Positions 7,257 through 17,116 of a stretch of 59,464 bases of DNA are shown piece after piece. The position numbers and the translations under genes were made by a program. Within the stretch, counting starts at the first letter, position 1. Each line of letters starts with the position of its first letter. A model generated the notes under the pieces. That model did not search any database, was not told the DNA's origin, and saw only the letters and a list, made by a program, of their open reading frames with translations. Origin of the DNA: a virus. The stretch covers positions 1 through 59,464 of the IMG/VR virus record IMGVR_UViG_3300029954_000009, one strand, 5' to 3'.

Positions 7257-9182
7257 TCACTCTACCGTGTAAATGTTCAGGCCGAAGGATTTGCCGAAGT
7301 CTTCCTCTTCGTCATCCTGCTTGCCGAAGTCAAGAGCTTCCGTGGGCGCTGCGGCCTTTCCGCTTTCATCGCCTTCAGACCCGGCGGCGCCGGTGGCGAT
7401 ATCGGGCTGCTCCGGTGGCTGACGGCCACCCTGCTGCTGCGCGGCCGGCGCGTGGCCTGGCTGAGAAAAATTAGAGGCATCCGTGCCTGATGTCCCTTTT
7501 CCCGGTGCGCCGCTACCCTGCGGAGCCCCCTGCCCATCCTGGGCTGATTGGCCTCCGGCCACGTCCTGACCGCCATCCGGTGGCGGCGTTCCAAAGTCCT
7601 CTTTCTCGCCCGGCTCATCGCCCTGGTCCTGCGTGATGGTCTGCGTATACAGAGCGATCAACGATGGATTCAGCGGGGCATCCCCCACCGGGCCCGGCAT
7701 GGCGTCAAATCCCTCCTGCGCGCGCGCCTCGTTCACGGTCAGGACCAGCTTGCGCATTTCCTGCCGGGCCTGCTGATCTTCCTCGTCAAGACCCGTGAAG
7801 CGGAACACGAACTTGTCACCGAAGGCCGACAGCACATAGTCGGTCAAAGTGTTTTCGTAGAAAGACAGCAGCGGGAGCAGACCCTTGTCCTTGCTGTCCT
7901 CGAGCTTGGCCTCGGTGTCGCTACCGGACAGAGATGAGGTATTGCCGCCCGAGAAGCTATCAAAATTGATTTCAGACGGCGACATGCCGTAAATGGCGCA
8001 GATGATCGAGGTGAGAAACGACATCCACTTGGCAAAGTACATTTCGTTGAACTGCTCGCCAAAGCTCTCGAAGGAGGCGGCGCTGTCCGCGTCCCTGCTG
8101 ACCATGACAGGCAGCGTCCAGGCATTGTTTATGCCCTTGACCATGCTGTTCCAGTAGCGCTTGAAGGCATCAATGTCCGTGCTGGCGTATTCGCCGCGCA
8201 GGTGGAGCATCCCGCGAGGGATGGCGTTGCTGTCGAAGCCCTTGATGTTGTAGGTCATGGCGTTCAGGAAGCCAGTGACCACGCGAATCAGCACCTCCGT
8301 CTCGCTGTAGCCGTAGCCGCAGGCGCGCACGTCGGTACGCGGGTTGCGGACCTCATAAATCAGGTCATCAAAGGTATAGAGCGCGCGGATCTTCCCGTTC
8401 ACGAACTGGAGACTGGTGATTTCGTCGCGGCCCTGGTAGCCGGCCTCCACACAGAGGCGAATGGTGCCCCCGTCGACGGCATATAGGCCGTCAATGCCCA
8501 GCTTCTTATCCCGCTTCATTTCGGTTTCGATGGCCATGGCATCGAAGGTCAGCGTGTCGCGGGTCAGCTTTGCCATGAAGGCACTGAAATTATCACGCTT
8601 CAGGCGCTTGCGTTCGCGCGCATTGAACTCCCACCCGCAGTTGGTCACGAACCGATTCAGGAGCTTGATGCTCTCCTGCTCCGTGTCCGTAACCTGGTGC
8701 TCTTTGTCGACGTGGCGGACAGTGAAGCCCGGCCCCTCGCCGGATTCCTGCACCCGGCAAAACCGGCTTATCTGGCGCTGGCGGGTCATGATGACGGCAT
8801 TCAGCACCGGCGTCTGGTCGACCATGGCGCGCAGGCTTTCAAAATTCAGCAGCGATGGCCGCTCCCAGAAGTCGCCCTGCACCGATACCTGGTACTCGTC
8901 CAACTGCACGGACTGCATTCCGCGGGCATGGGTAGCCGCGTTGCGCGAGGGAAAAGGGATGATATTGCCGTAGTTCAGCGACTTATTGACCGCATCGTCC
9001 TCCATCCGCTGAGTGATGAAGTCGATGACGGGTGCCAGTTCATCCGGCGGCATGATCAGGTCGCGGATACCTTTCGGGGCAAACGACTTCTGCATGATGC
9101 CCAGCGCTTCCGTGCGCTCAGCCAGGGGCGCTGCCTGATTAAAGGCAGTTCCTTCAACAGAATCATTGGGGGTTTTGGACAT
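7257..9182 (-). CDS. Portal protein
   Basis: 641 residues. The body has portal-family features: PVLNAVIMTRQRQISRF early on, a central FLNAMTYNIKGFDSN, and IICAIYGMSPSEINFDSF, typical of HK97-type portals; the portal ring sits at the capsid vertex and passes DNA. The last ~150 residues are Gly/Gln/Pro/Asp-rich and probably disordered, longer than usual. Just upstream of the zeta-kinase gene and downstream of a 63-codon ORF. Assignment by motif and by operon position, close to terminase. Confidence 0.85.
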   Translation of the reverse strand: MSKTPNDSVEGTAFNQAAPLAERTEALGIMQKSFAPKGIRDLIMPPDELAPVIDFITQRMEDDAVNKSLNYGNIIPFPSRNAATHARGMQSVQLDEYQVSVQGDFWERPSLLNFESLRAMVDQTPVLNAVIMTRQRQISRFCRVQESGEGPGFTVRHVDKEHQVTDTEQESIKLLNRFVTNCGWEFNARERKRLKRDNFSAFMAKLTRDTLTFDAMAIETEMKRDKKLGIDGLYAVDGGTIRLCVEAGYQGRDEITSLQFVNGKIRALYTFDDLIYEVRNPRTDVRACGYGYSETEVLIRVVTGFLNAMTYNIKGFDSNAIPRGMLHLRGEYASTDIDAFKRYWNSMVKGINNAWTLPVMVSRDADSAASFESFGEQFNEMYFAKWMSFLTSIICAIYGMSPSEINFDSFSGGNTSSLSGSDTEAKLEDSKDKGLLPLLSFYENTLTDYVLSAFGDKFVFRFTGLDEEDQQARQEMRKLVLTVNEARAQEGFDAMPGPVGDAPLNPSLIALYTQTITQDQGDEPGEKEDFGTPPPDGGQDVAGGQSAQDGQGAPQGSGAPGKGTSGTDASNFSQPGHAPAAQQQGGRQPPEQPDIATGAAGSEGDESGKAAAPTEALDFGKQDDEEEDFGKSFGLNIYTVE

Positions 9183-10424: not shown

Positions 10425-10979
10425 TTATTCGGAAGGAGCAGCGTCAGCGATGTCGCCTGAGGCCGGTTCAGCGATAGGGGCGGCAGCTTCAGCTTGCTCG
10501 GGAGCGGCAGCATAGGTGGCGTCGACCGGAGCAGCCGGAGCATTTTCACCAGTGCTGGCACCAGCCGGGGCGGCTTCGGCGTCGACCAAAGGGGTTGTGC
10601 TTTCCACGATAACGGTGTCCTCGGGATTAACCTCAGGCTCCGGTTCGCCAGCAAAGGCAGCCTGCTGCAGGCCATTGAATACGGCAGCAGCAGGAGCGGC
10701 AGCAGCAGCCGTGGCCTGGGCGTCAAAGCCGGCCGCCACGCTGGGGGTCAATTCCTGGGGCGCCGGATTGCTGAAATCCTTGGCACCAAAGGCAATCCCG
10801 TGCGCGCCAATATCGGATTCGTAGTAGGCGATGCTGGTCAGGGATTCGGCTTCACCGGTGGGGTCAACGGTCAGGTCGACCAGCTGCGGGAAGTCGGACG
10901 GCCCGGAATGGTTGAAAACAACGACAGCAGGGACTGTCAGTCCGGACAGTTCATGGCGGAAGTAAACGAGTTCTTTCAT
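10425..10979 (-). CDS. Ala/Pro-rich protein, possible head decoration
   Basis: 184 residues. The N-terminal ~60 residues look like a compact folded unit (KELVYFRHELSGLTVPAVVV); the rest is Ala/Pro/Glu-rich low complexity (AAAAAPAAAV, PAGASTGENAPAAPV). A short ordered head with a long flexible tail, between its own strong promoter and terminator, would fit an abundant virion decoration or scaffold protein; this is inference from composition and signals. The ATG at 10979 follows an AT-rich leader. Confidence 0.55.
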   Translation of the reverse strand: MKELVYFRHELSGLTVPAVVVFNHSGPSDFPQLVDLTVDPTGEAESLTSIAYYESDIGAHGIAFGAKDFSNPAPQELTPSVAAGFDAQATAAAAAPAAAVFNGLQQAAFAGEPEPEVNPEDTVIVESTTPLVDAEAAPAGASTGENAPAAPVDATYAAAPEQAEAAAPIAEPASGDIADAAPSE

Positions 10980-11023
10980 TTTTTTGTACCCTTGGTTGCT
11001 AAAAGTTAGAACGTGGAGTGCAA

Positions 11024-11053
11024 ATACTACACCCGGTTGCGCCCTGATGTCAA
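11024..11053 (-). promoter_or_regulatory. Sigma70-type promoter
   Basis: Minus strand TTGACA (11053-11048), an 18-nt spacer and TAGTAT (11029-11024), about 45 nt upstream of the start codon at 10979. The -35 is a perfect consensus. The -35 overlaps a hairpin-forming TGCGCC/GGCGCA pair. It would drive the monocistronic Ala/Pro-rich gene. Confidence 0.6.
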
Positions 11054-11072
11054 GGCGCAGCGAGGTCTGGTA

Positions 11073-11522
11073 TCAGGTGCTAGCGCGGATAGCGCAGGCT
11101 ACTTCGTGTTCAGCAAGGCACTCAGGAGAGTGCGAGACGCCATCTGTTGCGCCACAATTGGTGCCTTTGCAGGTTTTCCCCGCAGCCGTTTCCAGTTTGG
11201 CGATACCCTGCACCAGTGCTTCCGTCTTCGCGGCCTGGCCCTTCTGATAGGGCATCCACTCGGCGTAGAAGGCAAGGTTTTCGGTCGGGTCGCCATCCTG
11301 CACCAGCGTTACCGACGTGACGGGGAACTGCCGGCCGGCATGGTCAATGACGGACAGATTTACCACGGTATCGCTGTGGACATAGGCCACCAGCGCGGCC
11401 AGCGGGGCAATGCCGTCGTGACACAGGCAATTGCCGTTGTCGCCACGGAATTCCGTGTTTTTCGGGCGGAACCACACTACGCGCCCAACAGTGGGGGTGA
11501 TCAGAGGGATTTTGTCGTTCAT
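11073..11522 (-). CDS. Conserved phage hypothetical protein
   Basis: 149 residues with AGGAG before the ATG. The sequence TVGRVVWFRP, then a beta-rich region (NLSVIDHAGRQFPVTSVTLVQDGDP) and AEWMPYQKGQAAKTEAL belong to a small phage protein family of unknown function frequently encoded beside head or packaging genes. The C-terminal ~30 residues have four to five cysteines (CKGTNCG, CLAEHEVAC), possibly a metal site. It follows the tRNA/ncRNA block in transcription order. Confidence 0.7.
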   Translation of the reverse strand: MNDKIPLITPTVGRVVWFRPKNTEFRGDNGNCLCHDGIAPLAALVAYVHSDTVVNLSVIDHAGRQFPVTSVTLVQDGDPTENLAFYAEWMPYQKGQAAKTEALVQGIAKLETAAGKTCKGTNCGATDGVSHSPECLAEHEVACAIRAST

Positions 11523-11832
11523 GCTTTTCTCCTGGGTGATTGATTGCTGTGGCCGGTGGCGTCGGTTTCAAGCCGCCGCCTCATCCATGCCGACTACGCT
11601 AACACACTTTGCCACTTGAAGCGGGTAGTCACCGGCGCTGAACCCGGCATTCCTTAAATGCCCGATCTATCTTGTGCCTTTAGCCGCAAGTTCACGAATA
11701 AATAAGGAGGCTGTACCTGCGCATCAGCCTGCGCATTCACTACCCACAAAACTGCGCTCTATCAGCAGGCCGCTCCGCCCAGGGTTGGAAAACGGTTTGT
11801 ACCAGATGCAGAACGCAGTTTTGTGAGCTGTA
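11523..11832 (-). other. Gene-free hairpin-rich stretch with 12-bp inverted repeat
   Basis: 310 nt with no credible gene. It holds a perfect 12-bp inverted repeat (CACAAAACTGCG at 11745-11756, CGCAGTTTTGTG at 11814-11825, 57-nt loop) and smaller hairpins (GGCATT/AATGCC, GCGCA/TGCGCA, an 8-bp stem with one mismatch near 11553-11580). Directly downstream of tRNA-Glu in transcription order; it may be part of the structured RNA region. Confidence 0.5.
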
Positions 11833-11904
11833 GGAAGCAGACGGGACTCGAACCCGTGACCTTGGCAATGAAGATGCCAAACTCTACCGCTGAGCTACTG
11901 ACTC
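11833..11904 (-). tRNA. tRNA-Glu (anticodon TTC), C33 variant
   Basis: 72 nt folding as a full cloverleaf. Acceptor GAGTCAG/CTGCTTC has one mismatch at pair 4; D-arm GCTC/GAGT; anticodon stem TGGCA/TGCCA with loop TCTTCAT; T-arm ACGGG TTCGAGT CCCGT. Anticodon TTC reads Glu. Position 33 is C instead of the near-universal T. CCA is not encoded. Confidence 0.8.
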
Positions 11905-12866
11905 CCCACAAGTGAATGCTCTTAGTGGACAAAGGACGGGGTGTCGCCTCAAATGTAGACAGCCCCTGCATTCCACGAAAAGCACTCACTTGTGAGTTGT
12001 GAATGGTGGCTCCTATGGCAGAACCTGGACTTACGTGGGCATCACTGATCAAAGCTTCTTTCCTTGGTGTCCAGCCCATATGTCTGGCACCCCGGTTGCG
12101 CTTCCTCAATGCCAGCCTGCCGCTACCATACTGGACGATAACCACGCATTACCGTGGCACCGCACCCATCTACTCTTGCAACAGCTCGGGTAAGACCCGA
12201 CTCACCACTCACAAGGACTTACTCTCTGGGCGCCAACCCGGCAAAGGCTGACCGTCAATGCCGGATAACAAAGAGCAAGTTCTTGTAAAAGGTATCCGGT
12301 ATGCACACCCTACCGGAGTCGGGCTACTTGTAGCACAGTGCATTTGTGCCCCGGTGTTTTGCGCTGGGGGTGGCTCCCCAACACCGAGCAGGAGAAAAGT
12401 TGGCCGTCTTTCCGGCCTGTCACCGCGGTAGCTTCGGTCCTCGCCGCATCTTCCAGCATGATGCGTCTTCGCGCATACGTTATGGCTACTGTGCGCACCC
12501 ATGCATGGTGTCTGCTTCTACCCACCCGGACCTATTCATATCCGATTTACATTACGGGGGGTTCCCCCCAGGCGGGGTTTTATTCTCCCAGTCTCTCCAA
12601 GGCGTCAAGCCTAACTACCGATCCGGGGCCTTTTGCACTAGGGCTTTCAGTGCGCCTTCTGCCGGTCCAGCGGAATGGTTAGCGGATCACATTCCGAAAG
12701 TCCACTCCAGTTACGAGGCTGGAGGCCGCGACTCAGCTGCTTTAAGTTGTTCACGCCTTTCTGTAATCCTGCAAGGCTCAGGGGGCATAGTTACCAGCTG
12801 CCAACCGGTGCGGTTTCGTGGACATTTATAGGCCGTCTTGAAACCACCAACGTCATCCAGCCTTAC
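11905..12866 (-). ncRNA. Candidate large structured noncoding RNA
   Basis: About 960 nt between two tRNAs with no ORF on either strand that has a ribosome site or coding character. It is packed with perfect short helices: 12142-12146/12153-12157, 12186-12191/12195-12200, 12238-12243/12259-12264, 12295-12301/12311-12317, 12323-12327/12330-12334, 12352-12358/12380-12386 enclosing a GGGG/CCCC hairpin, 12402-12406/12413-12417, 12445-12450/12460-12465, 12556-12561/12564-12569, 12635-12639/12649-12653, 12671-12676/12691-12696, 12705-12710/12719-12724. Length, tRNA flanks and phage setting recall the large ornate RNAs GOLLD and ROOL, but the class was not verified. The strand is inferred from the tRNAs. 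Confidence 0.6.
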
Positions 12867-12942
12867 TGGTGGCGGGGACAGGACTTGAACCTGCGACCTT
12901 CTGGTTATGAGCCAGACGAGCTACCAACTGCTCCACCCCGAC
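12867..12942 (-). tRNA. tRNA-Met (anticodon CAT), initiator-like, CCA encoded
   Basis: 76 nt cloverleaf: acceptor GTCGGGG/CCCCGCC (mismatch at pair 2), D-arm GAGC/GCTC, anticodon stem TCTGG/CCAGA with loop CTCATAA, T-arm GCAGG TTCAAGT CCTGT, then ACCA. The D-arm, variable loop and anticodon region follow E. coli initiator tRNA closely, including the A11:T24 pair, but pair 1:72 is G:C and only two of the three anticodon-stem G:C pairs are kept. Upstream at 12943-13000 there is a GCCGC/GCGGC hairpin and a perfect TTGACA without a good -10. Confidence 0.9.
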
Positions 12943-13000
12943 ATTCTTGCCGCTTGTGGCGGCTTGGTGTGCTCATTTTTGATTAAACAGATATCGCCTG

Positions 13001-15076
13001 TCAATCACTATTTGATGAAAAAAGAATACACCCTGGGTCGCGCGGGCGCACCGTCATGCCGCGTGCATTGCACATGTTGCCATCTTCGTCGAAGTTCCGG
13101 CAATTGCCGCAAATTTCACCGGGCGGCAGGTCTTGTATCATGTTGACCACACCTTGATTAAGGCCTGGCAGGGCCTCTTCAATTTTCTTTTGCGTCACGT
13201 TTTTGGACTCCGGCGGGACAAGGAATGTCGCGTTGCCGTGCGCGCGCGCGTATGCGGCATCGCAAAGCATGTTGGCGTAGCTGGTATGCGGGTCGATACC
13301 GACCTTGATAACTTTGCGGCGGTAAAGCTTCTGTTCCTCGTCCTTCTCGGTAACCAGGGCGGTTTTCGTAAAGTGCAGGAACGCGAGATCCTTGCATACC
13401 GGGACCAGGGTGCGGATGCCCTTGTCGAGTACTTCCTGCACCAGCGCCTTGGGGTCAGGGAATAGGCACAGCGTTTTTACAAACCTGATCATCGACACCT
13501 GCATGCACTTGTACTGATCGAGCTTGACCGTGTAGCGGTCGCGCTCAGCCTCACTCGTCTTGCGGTCGGTGCGGTTCAGCGGGCTGTCACCCCAGCGCAG
13601 CATGTCGTCGGCAATGTCGCCGTAGTCGGCCAGAAACACCCGGCCGGGGTGGCGCGTGGCAAAGCGCTTCGCGTCATTGTAATTCGGCAGGGTTTCCACT
13701 ACGCACACGGCCACCCCGTATTGCTTCATCAGCACGTCGCAGCGCGCGAAGGGGTCATCGCTGTAAATGTACTCCAGGTGGATAACAGCCTGGCGGCCAT
13801 CGGGCAGGCGCTCCTTGATGATCACCACGTTGAACGCGCCCATCTGGTCGATACCCATAAAGGTATCCTTTGCGCGCTGTTTCCACTCCAGCCCCATTGC
13901 CATGCCCTGGGCGGCGCACTCGTTCAGCATGGCCAGATTGACCGGTATCAGGCTCGGGTCGTTATACGGCAGCCCAAGCTTGCGGTTATAAAAATTCTGC
14001 ATGTCCTCAGCATCACGATAAGCCTCAATCATTTCACGCGCGGATATGGTCGGGCTCAGCATCTGGTGGTACTGGAGACTGCGAATACGGGCCTTCGGAT
14101 TTTTCGGAATCCACTCGCCGTCCTGGGTATCAGCCAGGTAAGCATTGCAGCTGAAGCAAGTGTAAATGTAGTCGTCTTCTGGCGCCGTCGGCCATTTCAG
14201 CTCGCCGGTGGCCTCGTCCTTCACGTTGTAGGATATGCAGCCGGGGAAGTGGTCCGTCATCACCTGCAGCACATTGCAGGCCGGGCAGCGGGTATGGAAC
14301 TGGTGCTGGTCGCCGCGGATGTACCAGTAGTGGATATCCGCGTCCTCCCATTTTGCAGTCGAGCCCATCAGCGTGAACTTGACCAGGCTGGCCGACAAGC
14401 GCTCGCGCGCCTTTTCCATGTCGGCGATGAGCATGTTCTGTACTTCGTCAAACGACAGGAAATCCATGGGGTTGGATTCCGTCATGCTCTTGCCGGTGGT
14501 CCACAGGAAGAAAAACTTGGACTTGCCGAGCGTGCGCGTCAGCACATTGCCTTCTGTCTTCGCGCGGCGGGGCTGGCGCGGGTCCGGTGGCGCTGAGCTC
14601 TCACCCATCATCATGTTGTAGACGGCAGGGATTGTGCGAATGATCGGCAGAAAGCGCAGGCTGGACTTGATGCCGGCCAGCTTCATGTCGGGCAGGAACA
14701 TACCGGCCGACAACGGCATAAACTTGATGGCCATGTAGATGGCCGCCAGCATTTCCATGACCGTGAAACCCACCTGGGCGCACTTCATCAGCGCCACCGT
14801 CTTGCCGTAGGCTTCCTCGATGGTGGTGGGGATCTGGTCGTAGATGAACCACATGGATTTGCGGTTATCCAGCCGGAACGGCTTGTTATCGACCTCAAGC
14901 CCCTCTTCGGCCAAGCGCAGGCACCACTCCCGGAACGTCTCCGCGGGCCCGATAATGCGCATAGCCTCCGTCAGCTCGCCACCAGTAATACCCTCGAACT
15001 GGTCACACAGCTCATTGAGCTTGGCGGTCATGTCGCCGAATGTGGCTTTCTTGCGGAGCAGCGAGGGGAATGCCAT
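13001..15076 (-). CDS. terL: Terminase large subunit, GpA-like
   Basis: 691 residues. The ATPase domain has Walker A-like KCAQVGFT (~residues 98-105) and Walker B FLSFDEVQNM (~210), as in the lambda GpA family. An inserted zinc site (CPACN...CFSCN, ~262-310) is typical of GpA-type terminases. The C-terminal nuclease region includes YIYSDDPF and VVETLPNYNDAKRF. A Cys-rich tail, CGNCRNFDEDGNMCNARG and then DPGC, is an unusual extra and may bind metal. It motors DNA into the procapsid with TerS, encoded just upstream with stop and start overlapping. Confidence 0.93.
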   Translation of the reverse strand: MAFPSLLRKKATFGDMTAKLNELCDQFEGITGGELTEAMRIIGPAETFREWCLRLAEEGLEVDNKPFRLDNRKSMWFIYDQIPTTIEEAYGKTVALMKCAQVGFTVMEMLAAIYMAIKFMPLSAGMFLPDMKLAGIKSSLRFLPIIRTIPAVYNMMMGESSAPPDPRQPRRAKTEGNVLTRTLGKSKFFFLWTTGKSMTESNPMDFLSFDEVQNMLIADMEKARERLSASLVKFTLMGSTAKWEDADIHYWYIRGDQHQFHTRCPACNVLQVMTDHFPGCISYNVKDEATGELKWPTAPEDDYIYTCFSCNAYLADTQDGEWIPKNPKARIRSLQYHQMLSPTISAREMIEAYRDAEDMQNFYNRKLGLPYNDPSLIPVNLAMLNECAAQGMAMGLEWKQRAKDTFMGIDQMGAFNVVIIKERLPDGRQAVIHLEYIYSDDPFARCDVLMKQYGVAVCVVETLPNYNDAKRFATRHPGRVFLADYGDIADDMLRWGDSPLNRTDRKTSEAERDRYTVKLDQYKCMQVSMIRFVKTLCLFPDPKALVQEVLDKGIRTLVPVCKDLAFLHFTKTALVTEKDEEQKLYRRKVIKVGIDPHTSYANMLCDAAYARAHGNATFLVPPESKNVTQKKIEEALPGLNQGVVNMIQDLPPGEICGNCRNFDEDGNMCNARGMTVRPRDPGCILFSSNSD

Positions 15077-15798: not shown

Positions 15799-16337
15799 GC
15801 GCCACCACTCCGAAACTTGCTCTCACCCTCGAGCGCTGCCTCAACAAACGAGCTGACCGTCGTATGGTAGGCGCCATACCGGCGGACCACAGAGTCGAAC
15901 TCTTCGATATCGTGCCCCACCAGGCCCCACACCGGCAGGCCGTCCGAGTCATAGCTCGGGTCGCCGTCCTTGTTGGTCTTCTGGATCATGTGGCTGGCTT
16001 CGTGAAAAATCAGGATCTCGCGCAGGCGGTCAGTCGAGCTCATCCAGTATTCGCGGTCCAGAATCATCAGGTAATCAGGCGCGAAGCCCAGCAGGCGGCG
16101 CAGCGACCAGGTGAATACGTCCTTGAGCGAGCCCTGCACTTTGGGCATGTGCACGGACCCCAGCTCCACCTTGCACTGGCAGATTTTCGGGTCTTCGCGC
16201 AGCAGGAACGCCACCCTGGGGCGGCCTTCGGCCAGGTGCTTATGCTCGGGCATGGCGACCACCTTGGCGTAATGCACCAGCGGGTCGAGGCCGCTTCCAT
16301 CATCCGGCGGCATCAGGAACTTTTCGTAGTCATCCAT
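15795..16337 (-). CDS. Putative phage metallopeptidase
   Basis: 180 residues from ATG 16337, which has GAGGAAGC at good spacing. HEASH at residues 112-116 is the zinc-binding HExxH motif, with GHDIEEF at ~141-147 as the probable third ligand and conserved tail, matching the putative phage metallopeptidase family. The N-terminal part (HKHLAEGRPRVAFLLRED) also fits that family, which is usually encoded beside terminase genes. Substrate unknown; prohead processing is possible but unproven. Confidence 0.8.
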   Translation of the reverse strand: MDDYEKFLMPPDDGSGLDPLVHYAKVVAMPEHKHLAEGRPRVAFLLREDPKICQCKVELGSVHMPKVQGSLKDVFTWSLRRLLGFAPDYLMILDREYWMSSTDRLREILIFHEASHMIQKTNKDGDPSYDSDGLPVWGLVGHDIEEFDSVVRRYGAYHTTVSSFVEAALEGESKFRSGGA

Positions 16338-16794
16338 TGAGCTTCCTCTTCTGCACATGGTCAACGATCAGTTTTCCGTCCAGGTGGTCGACCTCATGCT
16401 GGATGCAGATGGCCAGCTTGCCTGTGGCGCGGAAAGCTACGGGCAGGCCGTTCTCATCAATGGCCTTCACGTCGATGGTGGTCAGGCGCTTGATGTGCAC
16501 GAACTGGCCAGGGAACGACAGGCAGCCCTCACCGCCGGGCATGGCCGTAGTCAGCTCGCCCACCGGGGTATATTCCGGGTTGATCAGCACCAGCGCCTTG
16601 GTCGGCGTCTCGCATACCACGATCATGCGGATGGACCGGCCCACCTGGGGCGCTGCCAAGCCGATGCCGCGGGCGCGAAACATCGTCTTGCGCATGTCCG
16701 CTGCCAGCGTGCGGATATCCGACGTGACCTCGGCCACCGGCTCAGCGATCAGGCGAAGCATGGGGCTGGCCCCGTTTTTAATTTTCAGCAGCAT
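16330..16794 (-). CDS. def: Peptide deformylase
   Basis: 154 residues from ATG 16794, preceded by AAGGAT. All three deformylase motifs are present: GIGLAAPQ (43-50), EGCLSFPG (89-96) with metal ligand C91, and QHEVDHLDG (132-140) with H133, E134 and H137. It removes the formyl group from nascent N-termini. At 154 residues it is slightly shorter than host enzymes, as in other phage deformylases lacking the C-terminal extension. It overlaps both neighbours, so it is translated within the packaging operon. Confidence 0.95.
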   Translation of the reverse strand: MLLKIKNGASPMLRLIAEPVAEVTSDIRTLAADMRKTMFRARGIGLAAPQVGRSIRMIVVCETPTKALVLINPEYTPVGELTTAMPGGEGCLSFPGQFVHIKRLTTIDVKAIDENGLPVAFRATGKLAICIQHEVDHLDGKLIVDHVQKRKLNG

Positions 16795-17116
16795 TACTCT
16801 TATCCTTTTTGTATGAAAGCATCCATTCAACAGCGCCGGCCGGGTCGCCGAGCTCGCCGGACACCCTGCGCCTGAAGTTCATAGCCGCGGCCTGCCGCAT
16901 GGTGATTTCCATGGCACCGGCGGCGACGGCCAACGCGCGCTTACTTAGGGCAATGTCGTAGTGGCTCCCGCTGGTTTTCTCCGGGGACTGCCACCAGCGG
17001 CGGGCCACACCAATGCGGGCGGCCATGGTGTGGAGCTCATCGTCGGTATCGGCCAGCATGTGGCACATGATCAGCCGACCGTACTGGGCGCGCATGTCAT
17101 CGACGTAAACAGTCAT
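16778..17116 (-). CDS. DUF4031 family protein
   Basis: 112 residues from ATG 17116. The run TVYVDDMRAQYGRLIMCHM, then DTDDELHTMAARIG, SHYDIALSKRALAVAAGA and TMRQAAAM, covers the whole DUF4031 family, widespread in phages and bacteria and of unknown biochemical role. The acidic and His residues (YVDDM, HYDI) suggest a small metal-dependent or nucleotide-binding enzyme. The longer reading to 17227 is rejected because it lacks a ribosome site and family similarity. Confidence 0.85.
   Translation of the reverse strand: MTVYVDDMRAQYGRLIMCHMLADTDDELHTMAARIGVARRWWQSPEKTSGSHYDIALSKRALAVAAGAMEITMRQAAAMNFRRRVSGELGDPAGAVEWMLSYKKDKSNAAEN

Follow-up and report, generated by a model that had tools for sequence, protein, structure and literature searches.

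Of the large RNAs found in phages, GOLLD is described in the available part of PMC12286853 as having a conserved 3' part, a variable 5' part, a position near tRNAs and a tRNA in its linker; ROOL is described there as a large phage and prophage RNA that often lies near tRNA islands and makes kissing loops. A smaller group is formed by STnc100 and PasD. In the part of a 2026 preprint available to us (PMC13192938), PasD is treated as an Hfq-linked small RNA, a common ancestor of PasD and STnc100 is proposed, STnc100 matches are placed near PasA, PasC and PasD, and tRNA matches in prophage regions are recorded; the family described below is not named in that part.

The window, that is, the whole stretch of 59,464 nucleotides analysed here (a phage record, IMG/VR IMGVR_UViG_3300029954_000009, positions 1-59,464), carries on its minus strand, in order, the terminase large subunit, tRNA-Met, a 961-nt block, tRNA-Glu and about 310 nt free of genes, beyond which come small genes and then the portal protein (Table 1). 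The gene-free stretch most probably belongs to a large folded RNA, the tail of which falls within a widespread phage and prophage family outside Rfam, and is taken here to represent a new family of large, multi-domain phage RNAs. In its full form the reading, to which a probability of about 0.55 is given, is that positions ~12945-11620 (minus strand) are a phage stable-RNA unit comprising tRNA-Met, the roughly 960-nt block, tRNA-Glu and a roughly 210-nt 3' junction domain, that this last part is the 3' junction domain of a widespread unnamed family, and that the RNA most likely acts in trans. The first-pass annotation had recognized a gene-free block between two tRNAs; the block is real and lies downstream of the terminase on the minus strand, and the helices named within it, the nested ones at 12352-12386 and the G6/C6 palindrome at 12556-12569, exist.

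Table 1. Features of the locus in the coordinates of the window
Feature	Position	Strand	Basis or remark
Terminase large subunit	13001-15076	-	PHROG 675
Promoter-like site (TTGACA, 18 nt, AAAAAT) before tRNA-Met	12975-13004	-	weak
tRNA-Met (CAT), heads the stable-RNA stretch	12867-12942	-	tRNA search and Rfam
5' multi-domain block, gene-free, 961 nt	11906-12866	-	ORF list, PHROGs, folding, L004 comparison
Hairpin with loop letters TGATCCGCTAA	12672-12695	-	stem altered on both sides in the L004 alignment
Recurrent hairpin UGACA-GGCCG-GAAAGA-CGGCC	12402-12422	-	common to other family members
Long hairpin, 13-nt outer arms 11982-11994 / 11907-11919	11907-11994	-	ends right before tRNA-Glu
tRNA-Glu (TTC)	11832-11905	-	tRNA search and Rfam
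Helix P0 (5' strand 11828-11809, 3' strand 11761-11742)	11742-11828	-	20 pairs, G-U allowed
Conserved 3' junction domain (P1, P2, linker, P3)	11621-11747	-	R1 match 11619-11749
P1, variable closing stem	11747-11739 with 11629-11621	-	3' strand read from the sequence
P2, invariant hairpin	11734-11719	-	
P3 hairpin	11648-11631	-	loop complementary to the P2 loop
Portal protein	7257-9182	-	PHROGs

CCA is not encoded by tRNA-Glu, the acceptor stem of which has one mismatch by eye, and tRNA-Met differs strongly between the window (12867-12942) and the close relative L004 (4816-4890). The promoter-like site is weak evidence, two such sites being found in 10900-13300 where 1.1 are expected; at the equivalent position L004 has TTGACA and ATCAAAAATGAG. 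The window also encodes a phage peptide deformylase (PHROG 2890; 16330-16830, minus strand), and neither ARAGORN nor Rfam detects a tmRNA in it.

The conserved part of the element lies behind tRNA-Glu, in the 310-nt stretch that the first-pass annotation had suspected of belonging to it; the suspicion was right, and the 12-bp inverted repeat remarked there (11745-11756/11814-11825) is real and forms part of P0. Loci that are otherwise little alike in this region share a 21-nt string, TGAATGCGCAGGCTGATGCGC (minus strand, 11739-11719). In an alignment of 53 sequences P1 is a helix of about 8 bp with variable letters, P2 a GCGCA/UGCGC stem with a GGCUGA loop, and P3 has the arms GCCGG and CCGGC about a loop with UCAGC. 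The linker between P2 and P3 measures 19 to 165 nt in 183 cores (median 74), taken to the first P3-like match, and T-arm-like hairpins occur in two of these 183 linkers, a number that is probably too low, since anything beyond that match is lost from the linker. The most conserved letters are paired, in P2 and P3, or lie within the two complementary loops. A further recurrent hairpin, roughly ACGCATGGNGATTG ... CAGTCNCCAGCCGTG, was seen by eye either upstream of the core or behind it in L179, L180, L111, L130 and L186.

A covariance model, R1, was built from these 53 sequences, which had been selected for at least 6 of 8 P1 pairs and include the window. R1 scores 73.4 bits on the window at 11619-11749 (E 5.5e-16), partly by construction since the window is one of its rows; at the terminase locus it matches 7 of the 71 relatives searched besides the window, with 11 strong matches in all. 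A search with a pattern of P2 letters returned at least 120 stretches in viral contigs and at least 119 in bacterial genomes, the latter, among the matches listed, mostly from Gamma- and Betaproteobacteria by their record titles. Among the 239 loci listed, many of them close kin of one another, 229 score 40 bits or more with R1 and all 239 have E 0.01 or better, to which P2 alone contributes some score; because most loci were fetched by P2, its invariance is partly imposed. The other ten, at 24-39 bits (L137, L151, L203, L235, L238, L281, L286, L303, L304 and L306), may be chance P2 matches. Four of the ten are the Verrucomicrobia, Polyangiaceae, Acidimicrobiales and Pontibacter records, which removes most of what had looked like a spread beyond the Proteobacteria. 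Copies outside the pattern set that were found by R1 are mostly tandem. Two or three junction domains follow one another on one strand in L152, L275, L163, L036, L037, L030, L123, L264, L213, L119 and L128; the later domains score lower in 10 of the 11 loci, L119 being the exception.

Covariation was assessed in several sets of copies. Over 23 pairs, loop-loop pairs included, 94.6% of cells in the 53 sequences are paired, with 118 double changes, as against 84.6% and 37 in shuffles. Because the 53 had been preselected on P1 pairing, the P1 test was repeated without that selection, on the 183 of 224 distinct cores in which P3 was found independently (41 were dropped): 7.12 of 8 pairs form on average compared with 5.12 when partners are swapped, and with one core per distinct P1 strand (n=67) the values are 6.6 and 4.84. 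In 36 varied R1 matches, which come from 26 hand-picked sources chosen for variants and are aligned by a fit to R1 that leans to the model, both-side changes affect 16 of the 23 pairs (8.3 in shuffles), the covariation score is 0.389 (0.108 in shuffles), and at the second loop pair 30 rows have CG and 4 have GC. Variant P2 stems include GCCCG/CGGGC (L264), GGCGG/CCGTC (L213) and GCACA/TGTGC (L152, L275), and an R1 copy in L128 has the loops GGUGA and UCACC. When the P2 loop GGUGA was searched for with P3 left free, three loci were found and the P3 loop had UCACC in all three, of which L350 and L352 share a flank and are not independent. Comparison of the copies thereby establishes the predicted helices P1, P2 and P3 and the complementarity of the P2 and P3 loops; a contact between these loops could form within or between molecules, both being compatible with the sequences.

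The domain has a second predicted pairing. In the window the 3' strand of P0 continues into the 5' strand of P1, and a P0 of at least 14 contiguous pairs that covers at least 4 of the 7 letters of the P1 5' strand occurs in 29 of 178 cores, compared with 0-1 in each of 10 trials with swapped upstream stretches. Shorter helices hardly discriminate (7 bp, 144 of 178 cores against 115-129 in controls; 9 bp, 73 of 178 against 42-50), and the overlap of P0 with P1 as a predicted feature is thus established by comparison for a subset of cores. A free-energy fold of the window's 3' domain, under a model that ignores loop-loop contacts, contains the extended P0 (z -2.88), and P1, P2 and P3 are not formed as drawn, which counts against the reading; P0 and P1 are therefore partly exclusive.

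The block upstream of tRNA-Glu holds no convincing gene. Its longest frame, of 161 aa (plus strand, 12346-12831), has no match in PHROGs, and the gaps in the alignment of its first ~580 nt with L004 run to 1, 3, 1 and 5, 1, 2, 1 bases. Measured against 60 dinucleotide shuffles per strand, the fold of the whole block has a z of -3.7 for the minus strand and -3.1 for the plus strand. In a local scan of the minus strand (160-nt segments, 25 shuffles each) the mean z is -1.23 over 11601-12960 as opposed to -0.41 in 222 segments elsewhere, just 3 of the 16 segments there fall below the 5% quantile, and those from 12241 on, with z between -0.7 and +0.5, give no folding signal. By itself the folding energy is a modest signal that would not carry a claim of structured RNA, and it is therefore the comparative evidence that carries conviction.

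The relatives of the locus examined were 75 viral loci with a related terminase. L002, L003, L006 and L009 are identical to the window over the stretch, while in L004, with a terminase 90% identical to the window's, the block's first ~580 nt are retained, its remainder and tRNA-Glu are lost, and the stretch behind is kept at 93%; identity of the window and L004 is 81% over 574 aligned columns. Their consensus fold reaches -164 kcal/mol, as against -109 to -123 in six column shuffles (a generous control). On the minus strand 11 pairs of this fold are changed on both sides, compared with 1-8 in the six shuffles, but the plus strand gives 15, so that the pair test gives no preference for the minus strand. 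Judged on the fold of lowest energy for the window alone, L004 breaks 39 pairs and doubly changes 3, no better than shuffles. L327 (9440-10596) looks recombinant, with L004-type letters near the 5' end and window-type letters behind. When 11520-13000 was compared by BLAST with a phage collection, the tRNA-Met part alone matched among the 40 of 273 matching records listed. A pattern search for the 5' block gave nine loci, eight of them from its own lineage (five on contigs already seen) and the ninth apparently a chance match, and the block was for that reason not modelled by itself; as a whole it has, in the BLAST and pattern searches, relatives in its own phage lineage only.

The strongest of the alternatives, though an unlikely one, holds that the 3' domain alone is an RNA element and that the 960-nt block is fast-changing spacer with degenerate tRNAs and chance hairpins. 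It accords with the local z near zero from 12241 to 12866, with the lack of a block homologue outside the lineage in these searches and with the equality of the two strands in the pair test, but not with the whole-block z of -3.7, the energy of the consensus fold with L004 or the recurrence of the UGACA-GAAAGA hairpin. Hairpins of this type, UGACA-stem-GAAAGA with stems that differ between loci, lie at most 900 nt upstream of 17 of 183 cores; the reverse complement has none, and 20 single-base shuffles have 0.15 on average and at most one. The 17 cores include close relatives, namely the window and L004, the two tandem cores of L123 and several Pseudomonas loci. The block and the 3' domain are linked by this shared hairpin and by their joint retention in L004; with tRNA-Glu between them, however, processing could yield two separate RNAs. 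What remains of the giant structured RNA originally proposed is an element that is structured, on the minus strand and linked to tRNAs, with the size and layout of GOLLD; against the claim in its full extent stand block homologues found in one lineage only and a moderate folding energy.

The genomic settings of the 3' domain are varied. Phages matched by R1 include HK620, mEp460, ZCEC13, IME207, KP591P1, SopranoGao, STGO-35-1, ASO78B and Aeromonas phage ST4. A tRNA lies between -1300 and +800 of the core on the same strand in 32 of 237 cases and on the opposite strand in two. In KP591P1, ST4, STGO-35-1, ASO78B and IME207 the RNA runs opposite to the adjacent structural genes and precedes tRNAs of its own strand (the R1 match in KP591P1 runs to 2631, with tRNA-Ser beginning at 2634), and this orientation in five annotated phages fits a gene of its own; no tRNA was found in the stretches fetched from ZCEC13 and SopranoGao. 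Linkers, too, can hold tRNAs: in L162 (7011-7206, plus strand) a complete tRNA-Ser lies between P2 and P3, and the linkers of L036 (11403-11578, minus strand) and L037 contain tRNA-like pieces (Rfam tRNA, 39.4 bits). By eye, the linker of L180 (3941-4059, plus strand) has a tRNA lacking the anticodon arm; with ARAGORN the result for L036, L037 and L180 is negative.

The position in the genome is not constant. The HK620 member lies between the late promoter pR'/qut and the terminator tQ, and others adjoin lysis, tail, capsid or regulatory genes, for which reason a packaging RNA tied to the terminase, considered from the neighbours in the window and in Aeromonas phage ST4, was dropped. Single-domain members from the genus Pseudomonas (L345 4982-5182 and L346 4997-5197, both plus strand) have a terminator-like hairpin directly behind, and 11 matches of exactly 199 nt in that genus, two of them inspected, suggest a fixed gene. 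Under strict scoring of 17 candidates per genome, matches were obtained for 30 of 199 genomes in the genus of L258, Pseudomonas by its title, for none of 198 in the phylum of L306 and, in that of L245, for one of 199, the query genome itself, a MAG; with such scoring empty answers show little. As a separate observation, the HK620 leader has 466 similar places in E. coli records, 208 of them on plasmids, and 11 matches listed on records of 101-198 kb are all to the upstream HK620 leader (L197 2791-2900; query part 212-321) and not to the junction domain.

These settings bear on a second alternative, a rather unlikely one, in which the RNA is a cis-acting element of phage transcripts and the P0/P1 junction steers adjacent processing or termination, as a leader or trailer. 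A long P0 that overlaps P1, as seen in 29 of 178 cores (controls 0-1), has the layout of a switch, and the place of the HK620 copy between promoter and terminator would suit such a role. However, an RNA that in several phages runs opposite to the surrounding structural genes has no such mRNA in cis to serve, although small genes or tRNAs of its own strand may be served, and the inconstant genome position also argues against a cis function.

Less probable again is a precursor of a small base-pairing RNA, in which single-stranded portions of the linker, or the strand that P0 releases, would base-pair with mRNAs in the way put forward for STnc100 and PasD. The case for it comes from sequences that bridge the two families, where the matches of R1 and of the STnc100 model coincide. 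L275 has, behind two R1 domains, a third one scoring 34.1 bits with R1 and 39.2 bits with STnc100 (RF02076; cut-off 47), the latter model covering 31-147 of its 206 positions; in the Qin prophage of E. coli K-12, between dicF and dicB (L322 20452-20585, plus strand), R1 scores 33.8 bits (E 1e-6 in 85,524 bases) and STnc100 34.4 bits, again below the cut-off. The bridging place has the letters GGTGAATGCGGCT near its start. The Hfq link of PasD and its proposed ancestry with STnc100 (PMC13192938, in the part available) point the same way, as does the single-domain Pseudomonas version with its terminator-like hairpin. Yet the linker and 5' parts are too variable for a common seed, conservation is highest in P2, P3 and the complementary loops, and R1 misses L332-L335, four strong STnc100 loci, scoring at best 10.8 bits there (E 0.77).

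Action in trans is the preferred mechanism, most likely, if unproven, by analogy with GOLLD and ROOL. It is favored by the RNA's own orientation in several phages, by ends near terminators (tQ in HK620, and two Pseudomonas loci) and by the occurrence of single domains. The unit would be transcribed downstream of the terminase, late in infection, and the tRNAs would be cut out by RNase P and 3' nucleases. During transcription P0 would form first and be partly displaced by strand exchange once the 3' strand of P1 emerges, whereupon contact of the P2 and P3 loops would lock the finished junction and give a stable 3' end. Lineage-specific modules and tRNAs would reside in the variable 5' block and the linker, and in the infected cell the RNA may be abundant and have a structural role. 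A bolder version, which must be considered a long shot, would add to GOLLD and ROOL a third class of large ornate phage RNA with no sequence relationship to either: through intermolecular P2-P3 loop contacts the 3' domains would link many copies into an RNA assembly, timed by the P0/P1 exchange; if so, the variable linkers and 5' blocks of the assembly would carry phage tRNAs and lineage-specific cargo.

That the RNA is a divergent GOLLD or ROOL, as the first-pass annotation had put forward, is highly improbable: size, a conserved 3' and variable 5' part, nearby tRNAs and a tRNA in the linker do recall GOLLD (PMC12286853, in the part available), but Rfam 15 at its curated gathering scores gives two tRNAs only in the whole window, with no GOLLD, ROOL, intron or tmRNA, adds, when 11540-13000 is searched to E 10, three weak matches, all in unrelated families, and none to GOLLD, ROOL or STnc100, and at gathering score finds no GOLLD or ROOL in 37 relatives scanned, which argues that the window RNA is neither. 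The domain is present in many phages and prophages of Proteobacteria and no Rfam model matched it in these searches, a new family beside GOLLD and ROOL, with small tractable members in the ~200-nt Pseudomonas version and the Qin relative of E. coli K-12. The letters of the junction motif were not found in the open-access papers searched. Faubladier and Bouche reportedly described in 1994 a 'widespread group of prophage sequences' which, to judge by that title, may overlap with those considered here. In the part of PMC5069750 available their work is cited in a one-line mention.

The family shares with GOLLD a conserved 3' part, a variable 5' part and tRNAs inside and beside the RNA: the 3' domain is found in 229 of the 239 P2-pattern loci listed and the whole 5' block in its own lineage only, and tRNAs are near by in the window and, on the same strand, at 32 of 237 cores. 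With ROOL it shares the large size, the place near tRNAs and, in the window's 3' domain, complementary loops. From both it differs in that their covariance models do not match the window RNA. STnc100 and PasD resemble it in their phage and prophage origin, and STnc100 is the nearest named family, probably a sister of that of the window RNA; the window RNA is not itself a member, since the bridging loci are shared by both models whereas the window lacks an STnc100 match and L332-L335 lack an R1 match. STnc100 is also only about 200 nt long, without the 5' multi-domain block. Even the bridging sequences are distinct from the new family, P2 and P3 being shorter and the complementary GCUGA and UCAGC loops not both present; the K-12 Qin copy, which follows DicF, itself a different RNA (RF00039), has a shorter P2, a shorter P3 loop and no loop pair. 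Together, the links to STnc100 and to the dicF region would place some orphan prophage small RNAs in one larger group with the RNA described here.
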